Source: Salinarchaeum sp. Harcht-Bsk1
Lineage (GTDB): Archaea; Halobacteriota; Halobacteria; Halobacteriales; Salinarchaeaceae
Assembly: GCF_000403645.1 (NCBI RefSeq)
Contig: NC_021313.1
Location: 2,809,014-2,873,013 of the forward strand
Reading direction: 5' to 3'
Length of the DNA: 64,000 nt
A model generated the notes under the pieces. That model was given only the letters and a program-made list of their open reading frames with translations, did no database searches and was not told the origin of the DNA. Every line of letters starts with the position of its first letter. Positions within the stretch are counted from its first letter, which is position 1. The translations under genes and the position numbers were made by a program. Positions 40,864 through 50,686 of the stretch are shown piece after piece.

Positions 40864-40938
40864 GCACCGTTGGTGTAGTCCGGCCAATCATTTTGGCCTT
40901 TCGAGCCGAAGACCTGGGTTCAAATCCCAGACGGTGCA
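40864..40938 (+). tRNA. tRNA-Glu(UUC)
   Basis: 75 bases. Acceptor GCACCGT pairs with ACGGTGC, discriminator A, anticodon stem TTGGC/GCCGA with loop CTTTCGA giving anticodon UUC, T arm CTGGG-TTCAAAT-CCCAG. No CCA encoded. Its 3' part is the left attachment site of the integrative element. Confidence 0.93.
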
Positions 40939-40939
40939 T
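40872..40939 (+). repeat. attL: 68-base direct repeat in tRNA-Glu
   Basis: Identical to 50293-50360. It covers the tRNA from the D arm to the 3' end. The 23-base 3' core (40917-40939) recurs two more times, at 50473 and 50664. The integrase gene starts 154 bases on. Confidence 0.8.
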
Positions 40940-41092
40940 GCAATTCCTTCTCCGGCTGGCGATTATCCTCCGTAGATTAACGAGAGGTTAGTCAGATGCG
41001 CCAGACCGATTCGACTCAACGGAAGACGGACCCCGACGCTGTACAGCGATTAGAAATATGTCAGACCGAAATACATTCTCCGGGAGAGTGCC

Positions 41093-42193
41093 ATGCTTCC
41101 TGATGACGTTCCGCTGGTGACTGGACCGGCTGAAGAGCGTCTGAGCGACCGCCAGCTGGTGGATTATCGAAATCATCGCGAGGATTTTCTCACTTGGCTC
41201 TACGCTTTCGGGAAGGATCCCGAGAGCGCAGTGGGCTACAGTGCAGACACGGTACTACGAACGGCATATCGAGTTGATCAGTTCTACCGGTGGGTCTGGG
41301 ACCAGCGTGGCTACACGAGTAGCCCATCATCCGAGGATGCAGATGCCTACGTCCGAGATCTCGCAATGGGTGAGGAGTCGAACACCCACAAGTCCAACAC
41401 GCTATCTGCTCTCAAACGGCTGTTCAAGTGGCGAGAGTACGAGCGGGGAGGAGATTCGTGGGAGCCCGAGTTCACGTTTTCACGCAACTCTCCGGCATCC
41501 CAACCTCGAGACTACCTCACCCGAGAGGAGCGGAACCAACTCCGAGAAGCTGCTCTGGAATACGGTTCGATCCCCGCCTATAACGATCTCTCGCCGGATG
41601 CACGTACCCGTTGGAAGCGATATCTCGCCCAACGCTTCGAGAAGCCCATGGAAGAGGTCGTTCCGGCAGACTGGAGCCGAGCAAACGGATGGAAAATTCC
41701 GTCTCTCGTCTGGGTCTCACTCGACTGCGGACTCCGACCTATCGAGGTCGAGCGCGCAACAACCAGCTGGGTAGATACCGAGAATGGTGTACTGCGAATA
41801 CCGAAGGAGGAATCCAGTAAGAACCGAGATAACTGGACAGTCGGACTAACGGATCGAACCTCCGACTCCCTCCGACGGTGGCTGTCGGAGCGGCAGAATT
41901 ATTCGGAATATCATGGCAGAGAGGCACTGTGGCTGACCCGCGAAGGAAATCCGTATCGATCTCAGTCACTACGATACGTCCTTCAGCGGATCTGCGAGGA
42001 GGGGGACATTGCTACGTCTGATCGCAGCTTGTCATGGTACTCGCTTCGCCACTCTGTGGGGACGTATATGACCAGAGAGGAGGGCTTAGCAGCCGCTCAG
42101 GTTCAACTCCGGCACAAGTCCGAGACAACCACCATGAAATACGATCAAGCTCCGGTAGAGGATCGGAAAGACGCCCTAGAGCGGATGGGGTAG
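41093..42193 (+). CDS. Tyrosine recombinase (integrase)
   Basis: 366 residues. N-terminal SAM-like core-binding domain (about 15-130), catalytic domain with Arg in LDCGLRPIEVE, Lys near IPKEESSKNRDN, the box SWYSLRHSVGTYM (Tyr replaces the usual first His of H-x-x-R) and C-terminal LRHKSETTTMKYDQAP with the nucleophile Tyr. Starts 154 bases past the tRNA-Glu 3' end, the usual place for an integrase that uses the tRNA as att site. All catalytic residues except the first box His appear intact, so it may be active. Confidence 0.93.
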   Translation: MLPDDVPLVTGPAEERLSDRQLVDYRNHREDFLTWLYAFGKDPESAVGYSADTVLRTAYRVDQFYRWVWDQRGYTSSPSSEDADAYVRDLAMGEESNTHKSNTLSALKRLFKWREYERGGDSWEPEFTFSRNSPASQPRDYLTREERNQLREAALEYGSIPAYNDLSPDARTRWKRYLAQRFEKPMEEVVPADWSRANGWKIPSLVWVSLDCGLRPIEVERATTSWVDTENGVLRIPKEESSKNRDNWTVGLTDRTSDSLRRWLSERQNYSEYHGREALWLTREGNPYRSQSLRYVLQRICEEGDIATSDRSLSWYSLRHSVGTYMTREEGLAAAQVQLRHKSETTTMKYDQAPVEDRKDALERMG

Positions 42194-42234
42194 TTCAATT
42201 TGTAACGGGCCGATACACCGTTACAAATACTAAA

Positions 42235-43080
42235 TTATTTTATATCATCGAGGAATCCGGTCGTGCCTTCCAGACTTGGATCTCTACTATCTGGCAGCTG
42301 TTTTTGTAGTCTATCAGCATTTGGGCGAAATTCGCGCCATACATCGGGATATTTCTCCTGCAAGAGTCCGGCAGCATCTTGAGAATATCGCCCCGTGAGG
42401 GCATCTGCGATCATTGCTCGCCTGATCGATCTGCGATTTGCTGCGATATCTTTGACTCTATATTCGATTTCATCAAGAATATCCTGAATCCTGTCCTGGA
42501 GAGCTGGACCAATCGTTTCACGCTGCCCAAGTCCATCTCCGACGATGATCATTGACCACCGGACGATATCAGCCTCATCCACTCCCAGAGCTTCTGAGAG
42601 GTACTTGATGAACCCCTTCTGGTTCCATATTATCCTCCAGGACTTCCTATCGACCTTTCTCCCCCAGTCGACAGCCAATATATCCGTCTCGTTGAAGCGA
42701 TCATACATCCCCCCTCGTGGGATGTACCCGCTCACTTCGCCAGCTACAATCCTATTCCGGGACAATTGGGAGATCGTATCTTCCCACTCCTCGGAGAGTA
42801 TCGTAAGGCCATATCGAAGTCCACGCTTCACCGCATGAGCCTCACTCCGGATATTGTACTCCCGTCGGATCGCATCGATAATCTCGATTATTGGGTTATG
42901 AACCGCCAGGGTTTGAGGTACAGTCCATTGGTCGAAATCCGAGTCCTCGTCTGGCAATTTCTCTTTGTCTGTCCAATCCTTTGATAGCGACTCTTCCAGA
43001 GTCCAGCTCTCCTTCGTTTTCTCTTCGTGAGCTATGCGGAACTCCTCACCGAGTACGTCCTCAATTTTCTCAAGATCCAT
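42235..43080 (-). CDS. Unknown protein, possible ribbon-helix-helix segment
   Basis: 281 residues from ATG 43080; a GTG two codons earlier is possible, but CATTAGA lies about 26 bases before the ATG. I do not recognise the family. Residues 50-100 (VPQTLAVHNPIIEIIDAIRR) look like an amphipathic helix pair reminiscent of ribbon-helix-helix regulators, and the protein has mixed alpha content after that with two Trp-rich stretches (SWRIIWNQKGF). Convergent with the integrase, 41 bases apart. It could be a regulator of excision. Confidence 0.5.
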   Translation of the reverse strand: MDLEKIEDVLGEEFRIAHEEKTKESWTLEESLSKDWTDKEKLPDEDSDFDQWTVPQTLAVHNPIIEIIDAIRREYNIRSEAHAVKRGLRYGLTILSEEWEDTISQLSRNRIVAGEVSGYIPRGGMYDRFNETDILAVDWGRKVDRKSWRIIWNQKGFIKYLSEALGVDEADIVRWSMIIVGDGLGQRETIGPALQDRIQDILDEIEYRVKDIAANRRSIRRAMIADALTGRYSQDAAGLLQEKYPDVWREFRPNADRLQKQLPDSRDPSLEGTTGFLDDIK

Positions 43081-43142
43081 TGGCACTGTCTATTCTCTCT
43101 AATGAGTGAGGTATTCAACCATGAATTTTATGTGGCTAGACA

Positions 43143-43175
43143 GGCCAAAGCCAGGTGCATCCCCGGGCTTTGGCC
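43143..43175. terminator. 10-bp hairpin between element genes
   Basis: GGCCAAAGCC pairs perfectly with GGCTTTGGCC around a 13-base loop. The downstream T-rich stretch is on the plus side (CGTTTTCCC). It lies between the end of the 43203-44010 operon and the start of the next minus-strand gene; likely a terminator or RNA stabiliser. Confidence 0.45.
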
Positions 43176-43202
43176 CGTTTTCCCTCTGGTTGAACTATTG
43201 AG

Positions 43203-43448
43203 CTACGCGATCATCCGCTGATCATTCTGGTCGAGATGGGTGGCTTCCCAGGCGGTGACAAACATCCCGATTTCGCGGTCAGATAGCTCCTCGAATTCGA
43301 TCTCGAACTCCTCCCGAATGTCTCTCCCAGCCGCCTCGAAGGCAGTAGAGATCTCGTAGGCTGTTCGTTGATCATCGAGCTCGGTCAACAGATCAATGAG
43401 CGCCTGATGGCTCTTGATGAACGAGTGGATGCTCGCTGTCTCAGGCAT
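43203..43448 (-). CDS. Small unknown acidic protein
   Basis: 81 residues, mostly helical in appearance, no Cys, no recognised domain. Its start overlaps the end of the upstream gene by eight bases, so the two are co-translated. Probably partner of that membrane protein. Confidence 0.5.
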   Translation of the reverse strand: MPETASIHSFIKSHQALIDLLTELDDQRTAYEISTAFEAAGRDIREEFEIEFEELSDREIGMFVTAWEATHLDQNDQRMIA

Positions 43449-44010
43449 CTTCCTCCTCCATCATCTCTTCCAGCTCGCTGAACGACCGACTCGGACGCTG
43501 TTGGCTACGGTATTTTCGAGACGGGATCAAATTCTGATTTGCGAACTCCAGCGCATCGTTTGCTGCTTCTTGTACGTTGGACTCGATCCCTAGCCAACCA
43601 GCGTCATTGTCAGTGAGTGGTTCACTGCTGTCATACAATGCTCCAGTGACACCTTCCTTGTAGATTGAGAGAACCCAGTACGTACCTGAGTTGGAGAAAA
43701 CTGGGCCGATCTGCAGTTTGTACGACCCAATTCTCTTGGTGTAGGTGCCAAACACCTCAGCCTCATCCATCCTCTCCGCGATTTCTTGGTCGTCAACCTG
43801 GACCTCTTGGATTTCTGCCTGTTCTGTCTCGGCAGGCGGACCATCATCAGTAGGAGGCGAGGACTGCTCTCCCTCGTTCCAATCGTCATTTTCGGCTGCC
43901 ATTGCATCAAGACCAATGGCCCCCATATACATAAGTATTATGACAAATAAGAGAATTTGCAGGATAGGCTTGTACCACCCTAATATGTCGCTGGTGAATT
44001 TTCGCTTCAA
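43441..44010 (-). CDS. Unknown protein with N-terminal membrane anchor
   Basis: 189 residues. A basic start (KRKFTSDILGWYKP) and one membrane helix (ILQILLFVIILMYMGAIGL) are followed by an acidic, Pro/Glu-rich linker and a 90-residue globular part (SYKLQIGPVFSNSGTYWVLS) ending in an acidic tail. Not a typical signal peptide because cleavage is unclear. Not recognised. Operon with the 81-residue gene downstream. Confidence 0.5.
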   Translation of the reverse strand: MKRKFTSDILGWYKPILQILLFVIILMYMGAIGLDAMAAENDDWNEGEQSSPPTDDGPPAETEQAEIQEVQVDDQEIAERMDEAEVFGTYTKRIGSYKLQIGPVFSNSGTYWVLSIYKEGVTGALYDSSEPLTDNDAGWLGIESNVQEAANDALEFANQNLIPSRKYRSQQRPSRSFSELEEMMEEEDA

Positions 44011-44626
44011 ATCTCTCTACTCCCGCTATCTTGGCTCACTCAAACAGGCTAGCAGGATCGCTGACTCACTAGCTTGGATCACCTAACCCGAATATGGCTA
44101 GCCGCTAGCGATACTCGAGGTATCACCATCATCCCCCTTCTCAGGATTTCAGCTCAATGACGGCCATTCCCTATGGAGCCATACTAGTACCTTGTCTAAG
44201 TTCTTGCAATGGGCTCAGTGAATGGGTGAATCAATGGCTTCAGAATGGTCATTGGAATGAGTTCGTCAATGGTGATTCGGTGAACCACTAGAGATGTGCA
44301 ATGGGCCTTGCTCGGCTCTGCAGGAGCATAGGATGCGGAAATGAATTCGAGATTCAACAGTCCTCATATCCCGATATACCAGGAGATCGGTTTTTCGGTA
44401 GGTCAGGCCAAGCGAACCCTTGGGGTTGCAAAAAATGGATGCGGCATCGAGCTAAACAAGCGCATTCGGTGCTGTGACACCCGAATACAAGGGTTTCAGA
44501 AGCGGGTGTAGTCTCACAATGTTTCCACTGGCAAATTGCACCCGGGAAATATTACTTAAGATAATAAACTTCGCGTCTTGGAGTTCAGCAGACAATTGAA
44601 ATGCGATCGTATCCTACTCCACGGTG
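44011..44626. other. 616-base divergent intergenic region
   Basis: No gene of any size seen. It contains a palindrome GATACTCGAGGTATC (44110-44124), a cluster of AATGG-type motifs (44206-44306), and AT-rich sequence near 44550-44575 (TTAAGATAATAAACTT) that may be the promoter of the rightward gene. As the longest gene-free stretch of the element it is a candidate for the element's replication or regulatory region. Confidence 0.4.
44206..44306. repeat. Cluster of short AATGG motifs
   Basis: About six copies of (C/G/T)(A)ATGG in 100 bases, e.g. GCAATGGG, GTGAATGGG, TCAATGG, GAATGG, TCAATGG, GCAATGGG. Irregularly spaced (11-30 bases). Could be binding sites for an element protein; may be low-complexity decay. 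Confidence 0.35.
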
Positions 44627-45025
44627 ATGGATCAAACCACCCCGAACCAGAAACACATCGAGTCATTCATTGACGATATCGAGGAGCGATATCAGTACGA
44701 TAAGCTCAAAGATTGCTCACTGGACTATCTCCACGAGCAGAAGTATTTGATCTTGAATGAGTTTGATCGTTTCAAGTCAAGTTTTCCCTCTCGGACTTCC
44801 CGTGCTCCAAAGGAATTGCAGACTCTCTGGTCAAGCCACCAAGAGCCTCGAGATCCGCTAACAACGTCGGAGAAACGGCAGCTAGAAGATGCGAAGAAAA
44901 CAGCTCTACGAGAGATTCACCGAGCTAGGGGGTACCGCAAAGACAAGAAGCGAGAACACCGACTCGATCTTCTCAATTCAGCTTCTGATGTTGCAGCTGC
45001 TCTTAGGAGCCTTTCACCTGTTTAG
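44627..45025 (+). CDS. Unknown charged helical protein
   Basis: 132 residues from ATG 44627 (GTG 44624 is adjacent). Highly charged, Lys/Arg/Glu-rich, predicted helical, with a basic C-terminal third (RARGYRKDKKREHRLDLL). No family recognised. The composition would suit nucleic-acid binding. Followed by the next gene after 54 bases on the same strand. Confidence 0.45.
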   Translation: MDQTTPNQKHIESFIDDIEERYQYDKLKDCSLDYLHEQKYLILNEFDRFKSSFPSRTSRAPKELQTLWSSHQEPRDPLTTSEKRQLEDAKKTALREIHRARGYRKDKKREHRLDLLNSASDVAAALRSLSPV

Positions 45026-45079
45026 GCACCTCGGCGATCCCACCACAGCATTTGTAATACCCAAGGTAAGCTATGATGT

Positions 45080-45931
45080 ATGATCTCTACTCCACCTTCC
45101 TGGCTCCAGCAATGGAGCGAGGTCATTGCGGGAATCGGCACCGTAGTTCTCACAATTTTCCTAGTCCTTCTATACAAACGTCAATCAAGTCAGCTTGAAG
45201 CTCAGCACGAGGCAGTTCTCGAAGTGACAGATGTGGAGTGGTACGGTGATAATGCTATTATTTGGTTGTCGAATTTCGGCAATGGAGTTGTCAAGGATCT
45301 ACGGCTCACCACTCTGGTAAAATCCGATTCAGGTAGCCACCGAAATCATGCTCTTCGAGCAAATGCATTGAAGCGTATCGGTAAAGGAGGAGAATGGACT
45401 AACATTATCCGACCTGGAGAAGAGGAGATTCCATTTCATGGCACCTCGCAGATCGGAAAGCATGCGCACAAGGATTGGCCAAGTGATTGGTTAACTTTGA
45501 AATTCAGTAATTACGCAAGAAATGAGAAGGGAAGGGGTGCAACAGAATTAAAATATACACATGCAGTCATGGGGTCGGAACTCTCTGGAAACTCTAGCTG
45601 GGACCGTATTAATCCAATGACGGAGAGTATCAACCCCCAGGATTTCGGTGCTGATAATTCTTTAGAGAACCTCCCTAGAAAGACATCTCATGGAATGGAC
45701 GACACGTTCCTGAAGTTTTTCTCAAGGACATCTCTATTATGGGATTGGACGACTTATATCTACGTTAAATCTATTCGGGGATTAAATCGGATTATCCCAA
45801 TGATCTCCCTAAGGCCACGTGTATTGGATGCATCGGGGACGAGACGGGTGAAGAGGGTTCTTCTCAAAAGAGATCTGAAATATCTGCTCAAGGAGAACAG
45901 GGTATCTCAAAGATTTGTTGGCGATAGCTAA
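45080..45931 (+). CDS. Unknown membrane-anchored protein
   Basis: 283 residues. One N-terminal membrane helix (VIAGIGTVVLTIFLVLLYKR) with positive residues after it, placing the rest in the cytoplasm. A beta-rich region follows (EVTDVEWYGDNAIIWLSNFG and GNGVVKDLRLTTLV) and a basic C-terminus. Similar layouts are common in haloarchaeal mobile regions, but I cannot name a family. Confidence 0.45.
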   Translation: MISTPPSWLQQWSEVIAGIGTVVLTIFLVLLYKRQSSQLEAQHEAVLEVTDVEWYGDNAIIWLSNFGNGVVKDLRLTTLVKSDSGSHRNHALRANALKRIGKGGEWTNIIRPGEEEIPFHGTSQIGKHAHKDWPSDWLTLKFSNYARNEKGRGATELKYTHAVMGSELSGNSSWDRINPMTESINPQDFGADNSLENLPRKTSHGMDDTFLKFFSRTSLLWDWTTYIYVKSIRGLNRIIPMISLRPRVLDASGTRRVKRVLLKRDLKYLLKENRVSQRFVGDS

Positions 45932-46062
45932 GTCATTCTCTTTGATGGATTGGACGAAAACGACCGTAATCGCCCAGCCTGTGCGCAATTGACTTTCTTT
46001 ATATAGGATGGGACCATGCGCGAATCGAAGGGGTGGGCTGGATCTCCTCTCCGAGTTCTAGG

Positions 46063-46899
46063 TCATAGCAAGACTATCTCAAGGAGAAATACATAGGTCA
46101 CAATCTGGCCTAAGAAAATGAAATATCCGCTCTCATTTGCTACTTGGATCAATCCGTAACTCGAGAACCAGAGCCGCATTACACCAAAGAGAACGAGGGT
46201 AGTGAAAAACAGCAAAAAGGTAGAGATGAGCATGGCTCCGGAAAAGCGGGCTGCGAGGTAAATCAATACCACATATGAAATTGGCGGGATAATATATCCG
46301 AGGAGTGTTTTGAGGATGGCCTTGACCACGATCCATTGCTCCTCAAAAGAAGCCTCTTCGAATGGTCGTGTTTCTATATAATCTCGGAGAGTCTTTTGAA
46401 CATATACCTCATTGTGATAAACCCGATCAGGAGAAACGTATCTCGACAATGTCGAGAGGTGACTCCCAATTATCTGTCCCCGATGTTTATCCGACATTTC
46501 ACCAATGACTGACTCTCCTTCCCGAATGATCGTATTGAATAACAGTTCCCAGGAGAGAGCAACAGCGACGATTACCAATATCGTGAGTATCGCTAAAATC
46601 GCTGGATGAGGGTCCCATCCTCCCGAATTCGAAATTCCGTATATTATGAGATAGAGCATCGAGATACATGTTGATGGTAATAATAGATAAGTCGTCAATC
46701 TGATTTCAGGAGTGTCAACAGACTTCCCTGAAACCACTGCCATTCTGCGAATTAACGTCAATAATAGCGGGAAGATTGCTATGATTTTGATGACGGGGTA
46801 TATGCTCAAAGAGGGAGAGGGATACGCAGAAACTCCTGCAGCTAACAAGGCTGTAAGCGCAATCTCTGAATCTACACCAGAAATGTCTTCAGAATTCAT
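46063..46899 (-). CDS. Unknown multi-spanning membrane protein
   Basis: 278 residues with six or seven hydrophobic segments: four in the first 125 residues and three in the last 85, separated by a 65-residue charged cytoplasmic loop (MSDKHRGQIIGSHLSTLSRY). Not recognised as a transporter family. Thirteen bases separate it from the upstream serine recombinase on the same strand, so they are probably co-transcribed. Confidence 0.5.
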   Translation of the reverse strand: MNSEDISGVDSEIALTALLAAGVSAYPSPSLSIYPVIKIIAIFPLLLTLIRRMAVVSGKSVDTPEIRLTTYLLLPSTCISMLYLIIYGISNSGGWDPHPAILAILTILVIVAVALSWELLFNTIIREGESVIGEMSDKHRGQIIGSHLSTLSRYVSPDRVYHNEVYVQKTLRDYIETRPFEEASFEEQWIVVKAILKTLLGYIIPPISYVVLIYLAARFSGAMLISTFLLFFTTLVLFGVMRLWFSSYGLIQVANESGYFIFLGQIVTYVFLLEIVLL

Positions 46900-46912
46900 G
46901 GAGGGGTGATTT

Positions 46913-47563
46913 TCAGATGTATAACTCCGATCTGTCCAGTGCTCGGGTTATCGTCTTCCGGGAGGTATTTAATTCACCTGCCGCTTTTCGCTTCGACAGT
47001 TCTCCCTTCTGCACCATGTCCAGAACGGCACAGACTCGATCGTAATTTGATCCCTCGATCAGCTGTCCCTCATCTTTCTCGAACCCGAGCGGAGGCCTGC
47101 CATGGTGATACCCGTCCTCCTGCTGTCTTGCAGCGATCCCCTCCTTGGTGTTCATCTGCTTGACCCTGGCCTGCCACTCCGCGAAGGCTCCAAGCATCTG
47201 CATCTGTAGGCGGTGCATGGGCCGTTCCTTGCCGTCTCCGAAGGATAGCCCATCCCGAACGAAATGGACTGCAGCGCCGTTGTCTGTGACTCGTGAGACG
47301 GTCCGCTCGAGGTCCTGGAGCGATCGGGCCAACCGGGAGATCTCGTGGACCACTACGTGATCAACCTCACCAGCTTCTACGGCCTGCATCAGCTCCTTGT
47401 AGCCGGAGCGGGCAGTATCGGTGCCAGTGGACTTGTCACGGTATACGTCGAGGTTCGAGAGAGGCTGGCCAAGATCATTCTCAGCGTAGTCGTGAGTGCT
47501 ATCAAGTTGGCGTTCGAGATTCTGCTCTTCTGTCGAAACCCGGACGTAGAGGGCTGTAGGCAT
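46913..47563 (-). CDS. Serine recombinase (resolvase/invertase type)
   Basis: 216 residues. Catalytic Ser in ALYVRVSTEEQNLERQ at residues 4-19, conserved Arg region VVHEISRLARSLQDLE, linker helix, and C-terminal helix-turn-helix (GELSKRKAAGELNTSRKTIT). Size matches small resolvases/invertases, not large serine integrases. It may resolve dimers or flip a segment of the element; no inverted site pair was found near it by eye. Confidence 0.92.
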   Translation of the reverse strand: MPTALYVRVSTEEQNLERQLDSTHDYAENDLGQPLSNLDVYRDKSTGTDTARSGYKELMQAVEAGEVDHVVVHEISRLARSLQDLERTVSRVTDNGAAVHFVRDGLSFGDGKERPMHRLQMQMLGAFAEWQARVKQMNTKEGIAARQQEDGYHHGRPPLGFEKDEGQLIEGSNYDRVCAVLDMVQKGELSKRKAAGELNTSRKTITRALDRSELYI

Positions 47564-47659
47564 GGCTACAGGAACTGGGATGGATGGGGAAAAGTGCAGG
47601 GTTGGGATACAAATTATCTATATGAGATATATTTGGCGAAAAGGTTATAATTTAATTAA

Positions 47660-48406
47660 TCATTCTTCAGAGAAGGGCGAAAATTCTTCACCAAATGGGT
47701 CGTCCGATAGTAGTTCTTCATGCAATTCCTCAGTGAGTGATTCGACATGTTCTTGAAGGCCCTCATATTCCCCAAACTCTGGTTCGAATTCAGTATTTAG
47801 TAACTCAATTGTTTCATCGAAGAAATCTTCTACATGAGGCCAATTAGTTTCGATCTCGTTAATCGGGACACAATACGGTTTCTCCAAGTGTCCATAGTGG
47901 GCTTCAAAGCCATCTTGGTAATCCTCCTGCATTTCTAGATCGTCTAGCAGGACAACTAATTCCGATTCGCCCTCAACTGTCGAGGTTCGCGGCTGAAGGG
48001 GTAGAACATTTTCGTGCTGAACATAATGTCTTAATCCGAGAAGTGTCCGAGAGGACTCCATTCCACGAAAGGTATCCTCAATCTCTGAAATCTCATTGCG
48101 ATATTCTCGGCCAACTCCGTCCTGAATGGTCTTGTGGACTTCCAATAGCGTGTACAAACCAGACAGGAAGTGGTGCAATCGCCGTTCTACTTCAAATACA
48201 TAGCCTTGTTCTCGTAATCGCTCGTTTGCATCGTTCGATGGTGCAACGTGGAGACTACCCAGACGCATGAGGTCAGAGAAATCATTATTTAGTGTTGAAT
48301 ATCGCCACTGGAATTTCTTACGAGCTTCCTCAATTTCCCGAGCCTCATGATCCCGTAACCGCGAGAATACATCCGGGGGCTCGTCATCTCCGTTTGAATT
48401 TGCCAT
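47660..48406 (-). CDS. Unknown acidic helical protein with HEPN-like RX4H motif
   Basis: 248 residues, mostly helical. GLRHYVQHENVLPL carries Arg-x4-His in a setting (R-x-Y-x-Q-H) like that of HEPN-type ribonucleases, preceded by long helices (RRLHHFLSGLYTLLEVHK). C-terminal third is very acidic. HEPN proteins are often toxins in defence or addiction modules; no clear antitoxin is adjacent. Divergent from the GTG-started gene at 48460. Confidence 0.5.
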   Translation of the reverse strand: MANSNGDDEPPDVFSRLRDHEAREIEEARKKFQWRYSTLNNDFSDLMRLGSLHVAPSNDANERLREQGYVFEVERRLHHFLSGLYTLLEVHKTIQDGVGREYRNEISEIEDTFRGMESSRTLLGLRHYVQHENVLPLQPRTSTVEGESELVVLLDDLEMQEDYQDGFEAHYGHLEKPYCVPINEIETNWPHVEDFFDETIELLNTEFEPEFGEYEGLQEHVESLTEELHEELLSDDPFGEEFSPFSEE

Positions 48407-48459
48407 GGTTGCCCTCCTCGATTAGAAGAAGATAACTGCTGTCCCATATATGCTCTCCC

Positions 48460-49053
48460 GTGGCCCAAATTATCGAAAGCCGATTTCGTGTTTTACATTT
48501 CTTTAGTGAGGATGTGCTGCTTAGTGACGTAGAGGGAAACCCCCCAGTGCACGTTGAGACTCGTGATGAGTCCTATTCTGATAGTTTGATTGACGATATT
48601 GACAGTCTGGAACCGGGGAATCTAATTAAGGCCGAGATTCGTAGTGAGTCTGTAGCTCAGAGGGATGGCCTTTGGTTCTTCCTTACGCTGGAAATAATTG
48701 AGAGTACTCGATTTCACTTTATTGACGGTGCTGATACTCATCCAACCCTTGTGGACGAGATGAAAGACGCTCTGGAGGATGTAAATAGCAATTCTGCCAG
48801 GAAGTCACTTTCATCTGATGGCGAGCGAATCGGTTACCTCACCGTAGCAGAGGGGCAGGGTGGTGATCTTTGGAAAGGGTTGCAGGTGGGTACAAATAGC
48901 CATGAGATTGATCTTAACAATCTCTCTAATATAGGTGATGCACCTCATGAAATTGTATATACGAGGTCACCAGATAGCGAATATCTCATATTTTACCATT
49001 TCTCAGAGAAGGGCACGGATCTGTGCGAACGTATTCTAGATAACAATCTCTGA
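48460..49053 (+). CDS. Unknown haloarchaeal protein (DUF6663-like)
   Basis: 197 residues from GTG 48460. N-terminus SRFRVLHFFSEDVLLSDVEG and C-terminus EIVYTRSPDSEYLIFYHFSE resemble a haloarchaeal family of about 200 residues that I recall as DUF6663; this match is from memory. Appears as two beta-rich halves. Function unknown. Divergent from the HEPN-like gene with 53 bases between, a layout seen in toxin/antitoxin-like pairs. Confidence 0.45.
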   Translation: MAQIIESRFRVLHFFSEDVLLSDVEGNPPVHVETRDESYSDSLIDDIDSLEPGNLIKAEIRSESVAQRDGLWFFLTLEIIESTRFHFIDGADTHPTLVDEMKDALEDVNSNSARKSLSSDGERIGYLTVAEGQGGDLWKGLQVGTNSHEIDLNNLSNIGDAPHEIVYTRSPDSEYLIFYHFSEKGTDLCERILDNNL

Positions 49054-49380
49054 CCAGCTCACCCACCGGACAAGCCGCTTCCCTAGCCCTATTGTTGATC
49101 TCACCTTCCTGCTCAAACTCCCTCAGCTGGTGTCTGGCAGTCTGAATGTGATAGATGGATTCCTCGTCAACCTCTTGCGTTGCGACGACCGTATATGACC
49201 TGCTTCGGTGGTATTTCCGAATCCAAGGTGGGGCATCGATTGGTGGTAGGTCCGGGCGTAAATCGTCCCGAAGGTGCGCTCGATCGCCGCGACGTTTTGA
49301 CGGGTGGTTTGGATCGCATCACCCCCGGATCGGCTTAGAACGCCGTAGGGCCATTCGGTCGAAGTCTTTACCTTTGGAGT
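49054..49380 (-). pseudogene. Frameshifted gene remnant
   Basis: On the minus strand a coding-like frame runs from 49380 (TEWPYGVLSRSGGDAIQTTR ... NVAAIERTFGTIYARTYHQS) to about 49192, then continues one frame over as TVVATQEVDEESIYHIQTAR and REFEQEGEINNRAREAACPV into the 3' end of the neighbouring gene. No start codon is present and the composition is more GC-rich than the rest of the element. Parent gene not recognised. Confidence 0.4.
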
Positions 49381-49542
49381 CTAACCTCCGGGCCCCGGCG
49401 AATTCCAGGAATTGCTTTCGAGGGAGTCAAAGGTTGCATGGAAAACGTCGGCAGGAAAAAGGTTCTGGGAGTCAGAAACCGATTTCACTTTCACTCTCTG
49501 GTGAGACACTATTCAATAAGCGATGAATTGTTTGAATGCACT

Positions 49543-50025
49543 ATGGCGTATCGGAGGACTCGCCCATCAGAGTCTGTACGTGTTGACAAGAGGATAAAGG
49601 GCGAAGCACTTTGCCGGAACTGTGGAGCTCCTGCTGGTCATATTGGCTGTCGCCGAATCTCAGAAAATCAGGTATTCGATCTTTTGAAAAATGCATACTA
49701 TGAACTACCTCGGAAGGATCTGATTGGAGAGAAATGGGGCATTAGTATGCAGATTGATCCACCAGGCCACGACTTCCTGAAGGATACTCGGTGGTATCTA
49801 CCCAAAGGCGAGGATGCGAATTATTGCTATCAGTATCGGGATGGATGGGAGTTGCACATTCGTGAGAATGACAACACTGGTTACGCGTATTCCTTCCACT
49901 ATGAACCCGGTGAAGAGCTACCAGTAAGACATGTTCTCTCTATGATCGCTAGGGATCATCGGGATATCGAGGAAACATTCGGATTGTATTCACGATACGA
50001 AGATCCGGAGAACATCTATCTGTAG
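49543..50025 (+). CDS. Unknown protein with Cys cluster
   Basis: 160 residues from ATG 49543, chosen because ATTCAATAAG lies about 27-30 bases upstream; the frame is open to 49438. CRNCGAPAGHIGC could bind zinc, and the middle is rich in aromatic residues (YCYQYRDGWELHI). Not recognised. Last gene before the right attachment site; C-terminus ends 215 bases before the second tRNA copy. Confidence 0.45.
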   Translation: MAYRRTRPSESVRVDKRIKGEALCRNCGAPAGHIGCRRISENQVFDLLKNAYYELPRKDLIGEKWGISMQIDPPGHDFLKDTRWYLPKGEDANYCYQYRDGWELHIRENDNTGYAYSFHYEPGEELPVRHVLSMIARDHRDIEETFGLYSRYEDPENIYL

Positions 50026-50239
50026 TTCTCCACTGATTTATCTCTGTATCAGCATTTCTCGATCACTGTCGCTACGCTCTCATTGGGTTTCCGAAGTCCC
50101 TTATCGAACAAGCGACAGGGGGATTTTTCTCCCGTTGAGTCACGTTCGGCGTTATGCCGACTCATCCAGGGATTTATGTAGGTGATCCGCTCAGTCTGCT
50201 CTCACGGAGAATGGTCGCTACCGGGAGAACCGCTTGCAG

Positions 50240-50359
50240 GCACCGTTGTCCTGCGCTTTGCGCAGGGCACGTCGGACCGCAGGTCCGACGGAGGTGTAGT
50301 CCGGCCAATCATTTTGGCCTTTCGAGCCGAAGACCTGGGTTCAAATCCCAGACGGTGCA
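50240..50359 (+). tRNA. Interrupted tRNA-Glu(UUC) copy
   Basis: GCACCGTTG (50240-50248) and the sequence from 50294 to 50359 are identical to the intact tRNA-Glu. Between nucleotides 9 and 10 lies a 45-base insertion (50249-50293) made of two perfect hairpins, CCTGCGC/GCGCAGG and GTCGGACC/GGTCCGAC. Known haloarchaeal tRNA introns lie in the anticodon loop, so this is not a normal intron. No TATA box at the usual distance. Probably a disrupted copy. Confidence 0.55.
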
Positions 50360-50360
50360 T
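50293..50360 (+). repeat. attR: 68-base repeat of tRNA-Glu
   Basis: Same 68 bases as 40872-40939, marking the likely right end of the element. Sequence diverges immediately after (TTTGCG versus GCAATT). Confidence 0.75.
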
Positions 50361-50472
50361 TTTGCGACGAACGGATGTGAGGAGCAAATGCTCCTCGCTG
50401 GGATTTGAAGTAGATCAGTCGCAGCCCGGAACGGTGAGCGTAGCGAACCGCATGCCCGGACCGTCTGAGCGT

Positions 50473-50495
50473 GGTTCAAATCCCAGACGGTGCAT
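50473..50495 (+). repeat. tRNA-Glu 3' core, extra copy 1
   Basis: A 23-base match to the tRNA-Glu 3' end from the T arm (GGTTCAAATCCCAGACGGTG then CAT). Confidence 0.8.
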
Positions 50496-50663
50496 CCTGC
50501 TGCGAGCAAAACGCGAGCAGCAGGTGCAGCTCAGAAGGGATTTGAGCCCTGGAAGTCTCGCGAGCGAAGCGAGCGAGACGTCGTCAGAGCTTTGCTCTGA
50601 CGGTAGTCGCAGCCCGGGAGCGCAGTGACCGAAGGGAGCGAGCACCCCGGAACGTCTTCCTCC

Positions 50664-50686
50664 GGTTCAAATCCCAGACGGTGCAT
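50664..50686 (+). repeat. tRNA-Glu 3' core, extra copy 2
   Basis: Same 23 bases as copies at 40917, 50338 and 50473, located 41 bases before the stop of the host nucleotidyltransferase gene. Confidence 0.8.

Follow-up and report, generated by a model that had tools for sequence, protein, structure and literature searches.

Organization of the locus

The window, by which we mean the whole 64-kb stretch of DNA analysed here, belongs to a haloarchaeal chromosome of 3.26 Mb and carries two copies of a tRNA-Glu(TTC) gene, the first of them intact and the second split by 45 additional nucleotides (Table 1). Mobile elements often attach at tRNA genes and usually carry the tRNA 3′ end alone. A sister genome (G001) contains the empty site, a tRNA-Glu preceded by the upstream region of copy 1 (97.5% identity) that passes straight into the downstream flank of copy 2 (96.6%), with the two matches overlapping within the tRNA. 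Such an arrangement is the textbook one of attB with respect to attL and attR, and therefore identifies positions 40939-50359 as an integrated element of 9.4 kb that has copy 1 as attL and, almost certainly, copy 2 as attR. The gene of a tyrosine integrase starts 155 nt to the right of the attL tRNA, and altogether the locus shows the traits of tRNA-targeting elements of the tyrosine integrase type: an integrase adjoining the tRNA, a direct repeat of this tRNA at the far end and an empty site in a relative. In SSV-type (suicidal) integrases, attP lies within the integrase gene, which is split upon integration; this type was rejected for the present case, where the 366-aa integrase ORF is intact and located outside the att sites. 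The element also encodes a serine recombinase or invertase. Eight out of the ten larger ORFs of the element (42238-50022) matched no Pfam, PHROGs or PADLOC family and no confident NCBIfam one, a defence-gene scan of the element proteins found nothing, and no virion gene was recognised.

The DNA that follows attR contains two exact copies of the 22-nt tail of tRNA-Glu, each one after a hairpin-rich spacer. One of these two tail units may be an extra gain in the window genome, as the sister genome keeps one such unit.

Table 1. Features of the tRNA-Glu(TTC) attachment sites and of the element integrated between them.
Feature	Position	Strand	Evidence and remarks
Intact tRNA-Glu(TTC), copy 1, attL	40864..40938	+	Host promoter side common to the sister genome; 40820-40939 97.5% identical to G001
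Integrated element, ~9.4 kb, between both tRNA copies	40939..50359	.	Absent from G001
Tyrosine integrase, 366 aa	41093..42193	+	PF00589 (E=1.5e-17); phrog_1; homologues in viruses and elements
Serine recombinase/invertase of the element	46913..47563	-	PF00239 (E=3.5e-34)
TATA-like box TTTATGTA	50173..50180	+	Directed at the split tRNA, and at the integrase gene when the element is circular; place matched by eye to the HF2 attP promoter
tRNA-Glu(TTC), copy 2, almost certainly attR, split by a 45-nt insert	50240..50359	+	Sequence, Rfam tRNA model, genome search
tRNA nt 1-9 (GCACCGTTG) of copy 2	50240..50248	+	Sequence
45-nt insert	50249..50293	+	Register ambiguous by 1 nt
Hairpin 1, CCTGCGC-TTT-GCGCAGG, 7 bp	50251..50267	+	With nt 1-9, layout of a type-B tRNA leader unit
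Hairpin 2, CGTCGGACC-GCA-GGTCCGACG, 9 bp	50271..50291	+	Sequence
Uninterrupted identity to the host tRNA (nt 9-75)	50293..50359	+	Includes the presumed recombination core, nt 30/34-75 by sibling comparison
First downstream spacer and extra 22-nt tRNA tail (50473-50494)	50360..50494	+	Sequence, G001 comparison
Second downstream spacer and extra 22-nt tRNA tail (50664-50685)	50495..50685	+	Related tail unit in G001; 50605-50685 84% identical

The split tRNA-Glu copy

Direct reading of the sequence showed that all 75 nt of copy 1 recur in copy 2, which confirms the original prediction that both are identical outside of the 45-nt insertion. The latter had been placed between nucleotides 9 and 10, which holds for one of two equivalent registers (50249-50293), the other one (50248-50292, after nt 8) being equally good. 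The two hairpins of the insert are perfect and have loops of 3 nt, as had been described, together with the 7-bp stem of the first one; the stem of the second, given before as 8 bp, really has 9. The 50 nt located just 5′ of the uninterrupted identity of copy 2 fold more strongly than 99.9% of the 50-nt windows in the same 64 kb (p=0.0007), and the best perfect stem of the insert is likewise infrequent (p=0.0037).

Copy 1 reaches 57 bits with the Rfam tRNA model and is detected by ARAGORN; copy 2 reaches 32.3 bits, in a match that begins inside hairpin 2 and borrows its acceptor strand from this hairpin, and is missed by ARAGORN. Copy 2 thus lacks the contiguous cloverleaf and the good covariance-model score of a functional tRNA gene, and the only intact TTC gene found was copy 1. 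The predicted fold of copy 2 nevertheless keeps the cloverleaf, including the acceptor stem and the T arm, and accommodates the hairpins as side branches, which weakens the idea that the insert blocks RNase P by destroying the acceptor stem. Nothing other than tRNA rose above the gathering score in an Rfam scan. The insert occurs once in the genome in a BLAST-type search, and an origin from a dispersed repeat was rejected as no other genomic match appeared at that sensitivity.

A search for the exact split (nt 1-9, insert and the rest of the tRNA, with no second 5′ strand) through about 390 haloarchaeal genomes detected the version starting with GCNCCGTTG only in the window genome and the one starting with CGGTTG only in G064, all remaining matches being due to chance or to 5′ leader units with an intact tRNA behind them. 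The split pattern was not found in viral contigs, nor did phage records give any DNA match to the tRNA-Glu of the window.

Interrupted tRNA copies in related elements and viruses

The integrase is 49-66% identical to integrases encoded beside tRNA-Glu or tRNA-Gly genes in other haloarchaea, and 36-49% identical, over 98-99% of the protein, to those of the Hafunaviridae tailed haloviruses. The att tRNA copy on the element side was read in each relative where it could be reached, leaving out of the attR comparison three elements whose attR lies beyond the contig ends (G004, G037 and G404). In G064, nt 1-9 are followed by the hairpins TTCCGCGC-GATA-GCGTGGAA and CGTGGAAC-TTT-GTTCCACG and then by the remaining tRNA-Glu. 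The attR of Natrinema thermotolerans, whose element was reached through plasmid records in a DNA search with the window tRNA-Glu and has an integrase 61% identical to that of the window, consists of nt 2-28 of tRNA-Glu, a nested hairpin with a TTT loop, and nt 32-75. In G091, a degenerate 5′ part and the hairpin CGCGCC-GAA-GGCGCG precede nt 19-75, whereas in the tRNA-Gly(CCC) element of G011 GCGGGGTT-CAA-AACCCCGC stands immediately 5′ of nt 30-71. The G007 copy is near full-length and altered in the 5′ strand of the acceptor alone, and in G066 identity begins at nt 34, with an unrecognisable 5′ half. Strong hairpins are absent from these last two out of seven attR copies, so they are common but not universal.

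Similar interruptions are found in attP itself in free viruses. HSTV-2, HCTV-6 and HRTV-7 have ACGGGCC-GCA-GGCCCGT in the D-arm region, and the attP copy of tRNA-Thr(GGT) in 18 HF2-like isolates is interrupted by hairpins whose stems vary in sequence and persist in most of them (GGGCC/GGCCC, AGGGCC/GGCCCT, GCCGCC/GGCGGC). The break is at nt 9 in the window and G064, at about nt 11-16 in the HF2-like tRNA-Thr, 14-19 in G091, 28-32 in N. thermotolerans and 30 in the tRNA-Gly element. The window element shares two traits with the attP/integrase module of Hafunaviridae type, namely a homologous integrase encoded just after the att tRNA copy and a hairpin-broken 5′ half. For the seven cellular elements, the window included, the 50 nt at the left of the identity block fold strongly (Fisher p=2e-4), a value coming mostly from the window, N. 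thermotolerans and G064. Taken one by one, the elements give p-values between 0.0007 and 0.51, only some of them significant. A broken att tRNA copy is thus not unique in kind, and it is the recurrence in related elements and viruses that deserves interest; this recurrence suggests that random decay may not fully account for the broken 5′ half.

Identity to the host tRNA starts at nt 30 in G011, 32 in N. thermotolerans and 34 in G066, which indicates a recombining core that spans roughly the anticodon loop and everything 3′ of it, with the insert located outside of this core, on the side of the element. By analogy with these siblings, nt 1-33 of the split copy, insert included, would have been contributed by the element, although an origin after integration is conceivable; we consider it quite likely that the insert arrived with the element. 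Of the host tRNA-Glu genes read, those with the acceptor sequence of the element copy, GCACCG, belong to this genus or its close surroundings, so the copy was probably acquired there.

Two proposals of the original prediction, a dead copy and a silent att site kept by the element, gain support from the empty site of the sister genome, the integrase at the other end and the 5′-half breaks in the att copies of relatives, free viruses among them; the latter came from the comparison with other haloarchaeal tRNA att sites that had been advised.

A putative promoter upstream of the split copy

The absence of a TATA box, as initially stated, does not hold: a TATA-like box is found about 60-67 nt upstream of copy 2, and TTTATNTA has two matches in the 64 kb for 0.17 expected. 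Similar boxes precede the copies of N. thermotolerans, G007, G066 and G091 and those of both virus groups, and no clear one was seen upstream of the G064 and G011 copies. In HF2, a transcription start was mapped by primer extension to T-40936, on the 5′ side of the tRNA-like attP; according to the authors, attP, a small CxxC gene and the integrase share this single promoter (PMC8707807). We mapped this start onto the L207 sequence for comparison. Co-transcription of attP and integrase is thus demonstrated for HF2 only, and is predicted for the window from the TATA-like box at 50173.

Hairpin units flanking haloarchaeal tRNA genes

The genome searches also revealed leader units in which nt 1-9 of the tRNA are duplicated exactly and followed by a hairpin, in most cases a segment complementary to nt 1-6, and a second hairpin, the intact tRNA coming next. 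They occur, sometimes in tandem, 5′ of tRNA-Gly (mostly with the CCC anticodon) in 58 of 292 haloarchaeal genomes, with none for the reversed-pattern control, and 5′ of tRNA-Glu in 23 of about 390, or about 6%, besides the window genome. A perfect stem of at least 6 bp is present within the first 36 nt after the copy of nt 1-9 in 43 of 56 units, compared with 7% of background windows. In type-B units, the copied nucleotides are followed by TCCT..hairpin..AGGGC, a layout that hairpin 1 of the window reproduces immediately behind nt 1-9; copy 2 lacks both the segment complementary to nt 1-6 and an intact tRNA after it. Two units, one of type B and one of type A, stand in tandem before the tRNA-Gly of the window genome, and both tRNA-Glu genes of Halorutilus carry a leader unit. 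In a Woesearchaeota and in a euryarchaeal MAG, CCGTTG..hairpin..CAACGG precedes tRNA-Glu. In G011, an integrase of HF2 type (49% identical) adjoins a tRNA-Gly bearing two 5′ leader units, so that tRNAs with leader units overlap with the targets of the HF2-type integrase family.

At the other end of the genes, the last 12 nt of the tRNA are repeated within the following 400 nt for 23 of 59 tRNAs from three genomes, compared with 0.5% when tRNAs were swapped; the tRNA-Glu of the window shows such repeats twice after attR. These extra 3′ ends, seen for about 40% of the tRNAs of the three genomes, lie 70-270 nt downstream, and several of the spacers contain a core like AGTCGCAGCCCG..hairpin..CGGGAACGTCT between arms that match the T arm of that tRNA. 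All these units may be integration remnants, template-switching products or structured leaders and trailers. A limited literature search, which is weak evidence of absence, found no description of them; they would represent a further undescribed genome feature around many haloarchaeal tRNA genes.

Proposed role of the split copy and alternative explanations

On balance, we lean toward considering copy 2 as the attR of an element whose attP carries a hairpin-broken tRNA copy in the leader of the integrase mRNA, kept broken against tRNA function. The element uses tRNA-Glu(TTC) as attachment site, and its attP would contain a nearly full-length copy of this tRNA, the 5′ half of which is broken by hairpins, two of them after nt 9 in this case. 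Recombination would proceed through the 3′ part, roughly the anticodon loop onwards, and would leave at attL a working tRNA composed of the host promoter, the host 5′ half and the element 3′ half, whereas the broken copy, with the element's own promoter, would be left behind at attR. In the excised circle, the predicted order is TATA box, broken tRNA and integrase gene, an order that would place the tRNA copy inside the leader of the integrase mRNA. We infer that the copy has to be unable to work as a tRNA and that this is why it stays broken: with an interrupted 5′ half, the transcript would give no competing tRNA and the leader would escape handling as a tRNA precursor. It is not certain, however, that RNase P or tRNase Z would ignore copy 2, given the cloverleaf kept in the predicted fold. 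Whether the hairpin is kept by selection at all seems to us evenly balanced; as for the reason behind such selection, silencing at the RNA level, itself rather doubtful, would come ahead of a role in DNA attachment.

The contribution of selection has to be weighed against neutral decay, in which the 5′ half of the attP tRNA would be under no selection. Sequence able to form hairpins, which abounds in the noncoding DNA of haloarchaea, would then have entered it by chance and without any function. Decay of hairpin-prone sequence could indeed mimic selection in such hairpin-rich intergenic DNA: at most loci about 5-10% of random 80-nt windows hold a perfect stem of at least 6 bp, break positions vary among elements, G007 and G066 have no strong hairpin, and the HF2-like copies have been described simply as truncated or poorly folding (PMC8707807, PMC7230728). 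We still regard this explanation as unlikely, because several distantly related elements and two virus groups have strong hairpins next to the identity block, and because the rest of the 5′ half has barely decayed, with nt 1-33 identical in the window and nt 2-28 96% identical in N. thermotolerans, which indicates that the hairpin preceded decay. Less probable again is a function at the DNA level, where the hairpin, possibly as a cruciform, would serve as arm site for the integrase or an accessory protein and set the direction or efficiency of recombination. In G091, G011 and the window, hairpins do lie directly at the left edge of the core, and stems persist while their sequence changes, but the hairpins stand anywhere between about 1 and 29 nt from the anticodon loop, which does not fit an arm site at a fixed place, they have no sequence in common, and G066 has no hairpin. 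The non-canonical intron that the original prediction contemplated, to be removed at position 9/10 by the splicing endonuclease, is extremely improbable. Taking out exactly 45 nt would restore tRNA-Glu and the insert fits the cloverleaf in the predicted fold; however, the advised search for a splice motif bore out the reported lack of a bulge-helix-bulge, with none in a strict scan at either register or nearby and a 4-bp core devoid of flanking helices as the best candidate, so the exon-intron borders do not have the motif of archaeal tRNA introns. Moreover, insert positions differ in related copies (9, 11-16 and 28-32), and an intact TTC gene is present in the form of copy 1.

A different question is where the interruption came from. 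Copy 2 may derive from a tRNA-Glu gene preceded by a leader unit (tRNA nt 1-9, hairpin, complement, hairpin and tRNA), its first nine nucleotides and hairpin 1 being the remains of the unit and hairpin 2 having replaced the second half of the unit and the true 5′ strand of the tRNA. This possibility, which we hold tentatively and which concerns origin only, is compatible with the attP-leader explanation favoured above. Nucleotides 1-9 followed by TCCTGCG..CGCAGGGC match type-B units upstream of tRNA-Gly and tRNA-Glu, such as TCCTGCGGAACGAAGTGACGCAGGGC in G134 and TTCTGCGCGGAAGCGCAGGGC in Halorutilus, and the window genome has units of its own before tRNA-Gly. Against it, copy 2 contains neither CGGTGC, which would be complementary to nt 1-6, nor a second copy of nt 1-8, most of the sibling attR copies have no such unit, and neither does the host tRNA-Glu. 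More speculative is the general proposal that haloarchaeal integrative elements and tailed viruses with this integrase family actively keep a full attP tRNA copy, hairpin-broken as a safety device in the integrase mRNA leader, with a hairpin drawn from a wider undescribed class of tRNA-end-copying units found around the tRNA genes of haloarchaea, on the 5′ side for tRNA-Gly and tRNA-Glu and on the 3′ side for about 40% of the sampled tRNAs; we find this doubtful as a whole.

Comparison with known systems

If the attP-leader explanation is true, a whole hairpin-broken tRNA between a promoter and the integrase would be a concrete and testable case of an attachment sequence separated from tRNA function, and would explain why the annotation of HF2-like haloviruses includes tRNA-like attP genes of low score. 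As in archaeal tRNA introns of the bulge-helix-bulge type, removal of the insert would leave a perfect tRNA, but the window copy differs from them in the lack of that motif, the variable positions in relatives and the attR context. The layout proposed here resembles that of Pcirc in ICEclc, a promoter at the end of the element that faces and reaches the integrase gene only after circularisation; the att site of ICEclc is a short 3′ fragment of a tRNA, whereas in the window a whole broken tRNA would lie between promoter and gene.

The tRNA-Glu elements described in Haloferax volcanii, Halogeometricum borinquense and Natrialba magadii (HVO_2815A, Nmag_0465) have an HF2-type integrase beside a complete tRNA-Glu and a truncated copy 5-48 kb downstream (PMC3119063). 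By this description they share with the window element the integrase, the complete tRNA-Glu and the distant second copy, and the part of the source consulted mentions no hairpin interruption, unlike what is found in the window (PMC3119063). A further similar system is the tRNA-Thr-like attP of the HF1/HF2-like haloviruses (HrrHF2_450; PMC8707807, PMC7230728), which, as in the window, is an element-borne tRNA copy of apparently full length, adjoined by a homologous tyrosine integrase, folds poorly, matches host tRNA genes in its 3′ part and has hairpins in its 5′ half. A promoter precedes it, at a place where the window has the TATA-like box. In those viruses, the target is tRNA-Thr(GGT), the 5′ half is degenerate and the break falls at nt 11-16, whereas in the window the copy is one of tRNA-Glu whose 5′ half is identical and interrupted after nt 9 by two hairpins, and the element is a small one of 9.4 kb without a recognised virion gene.
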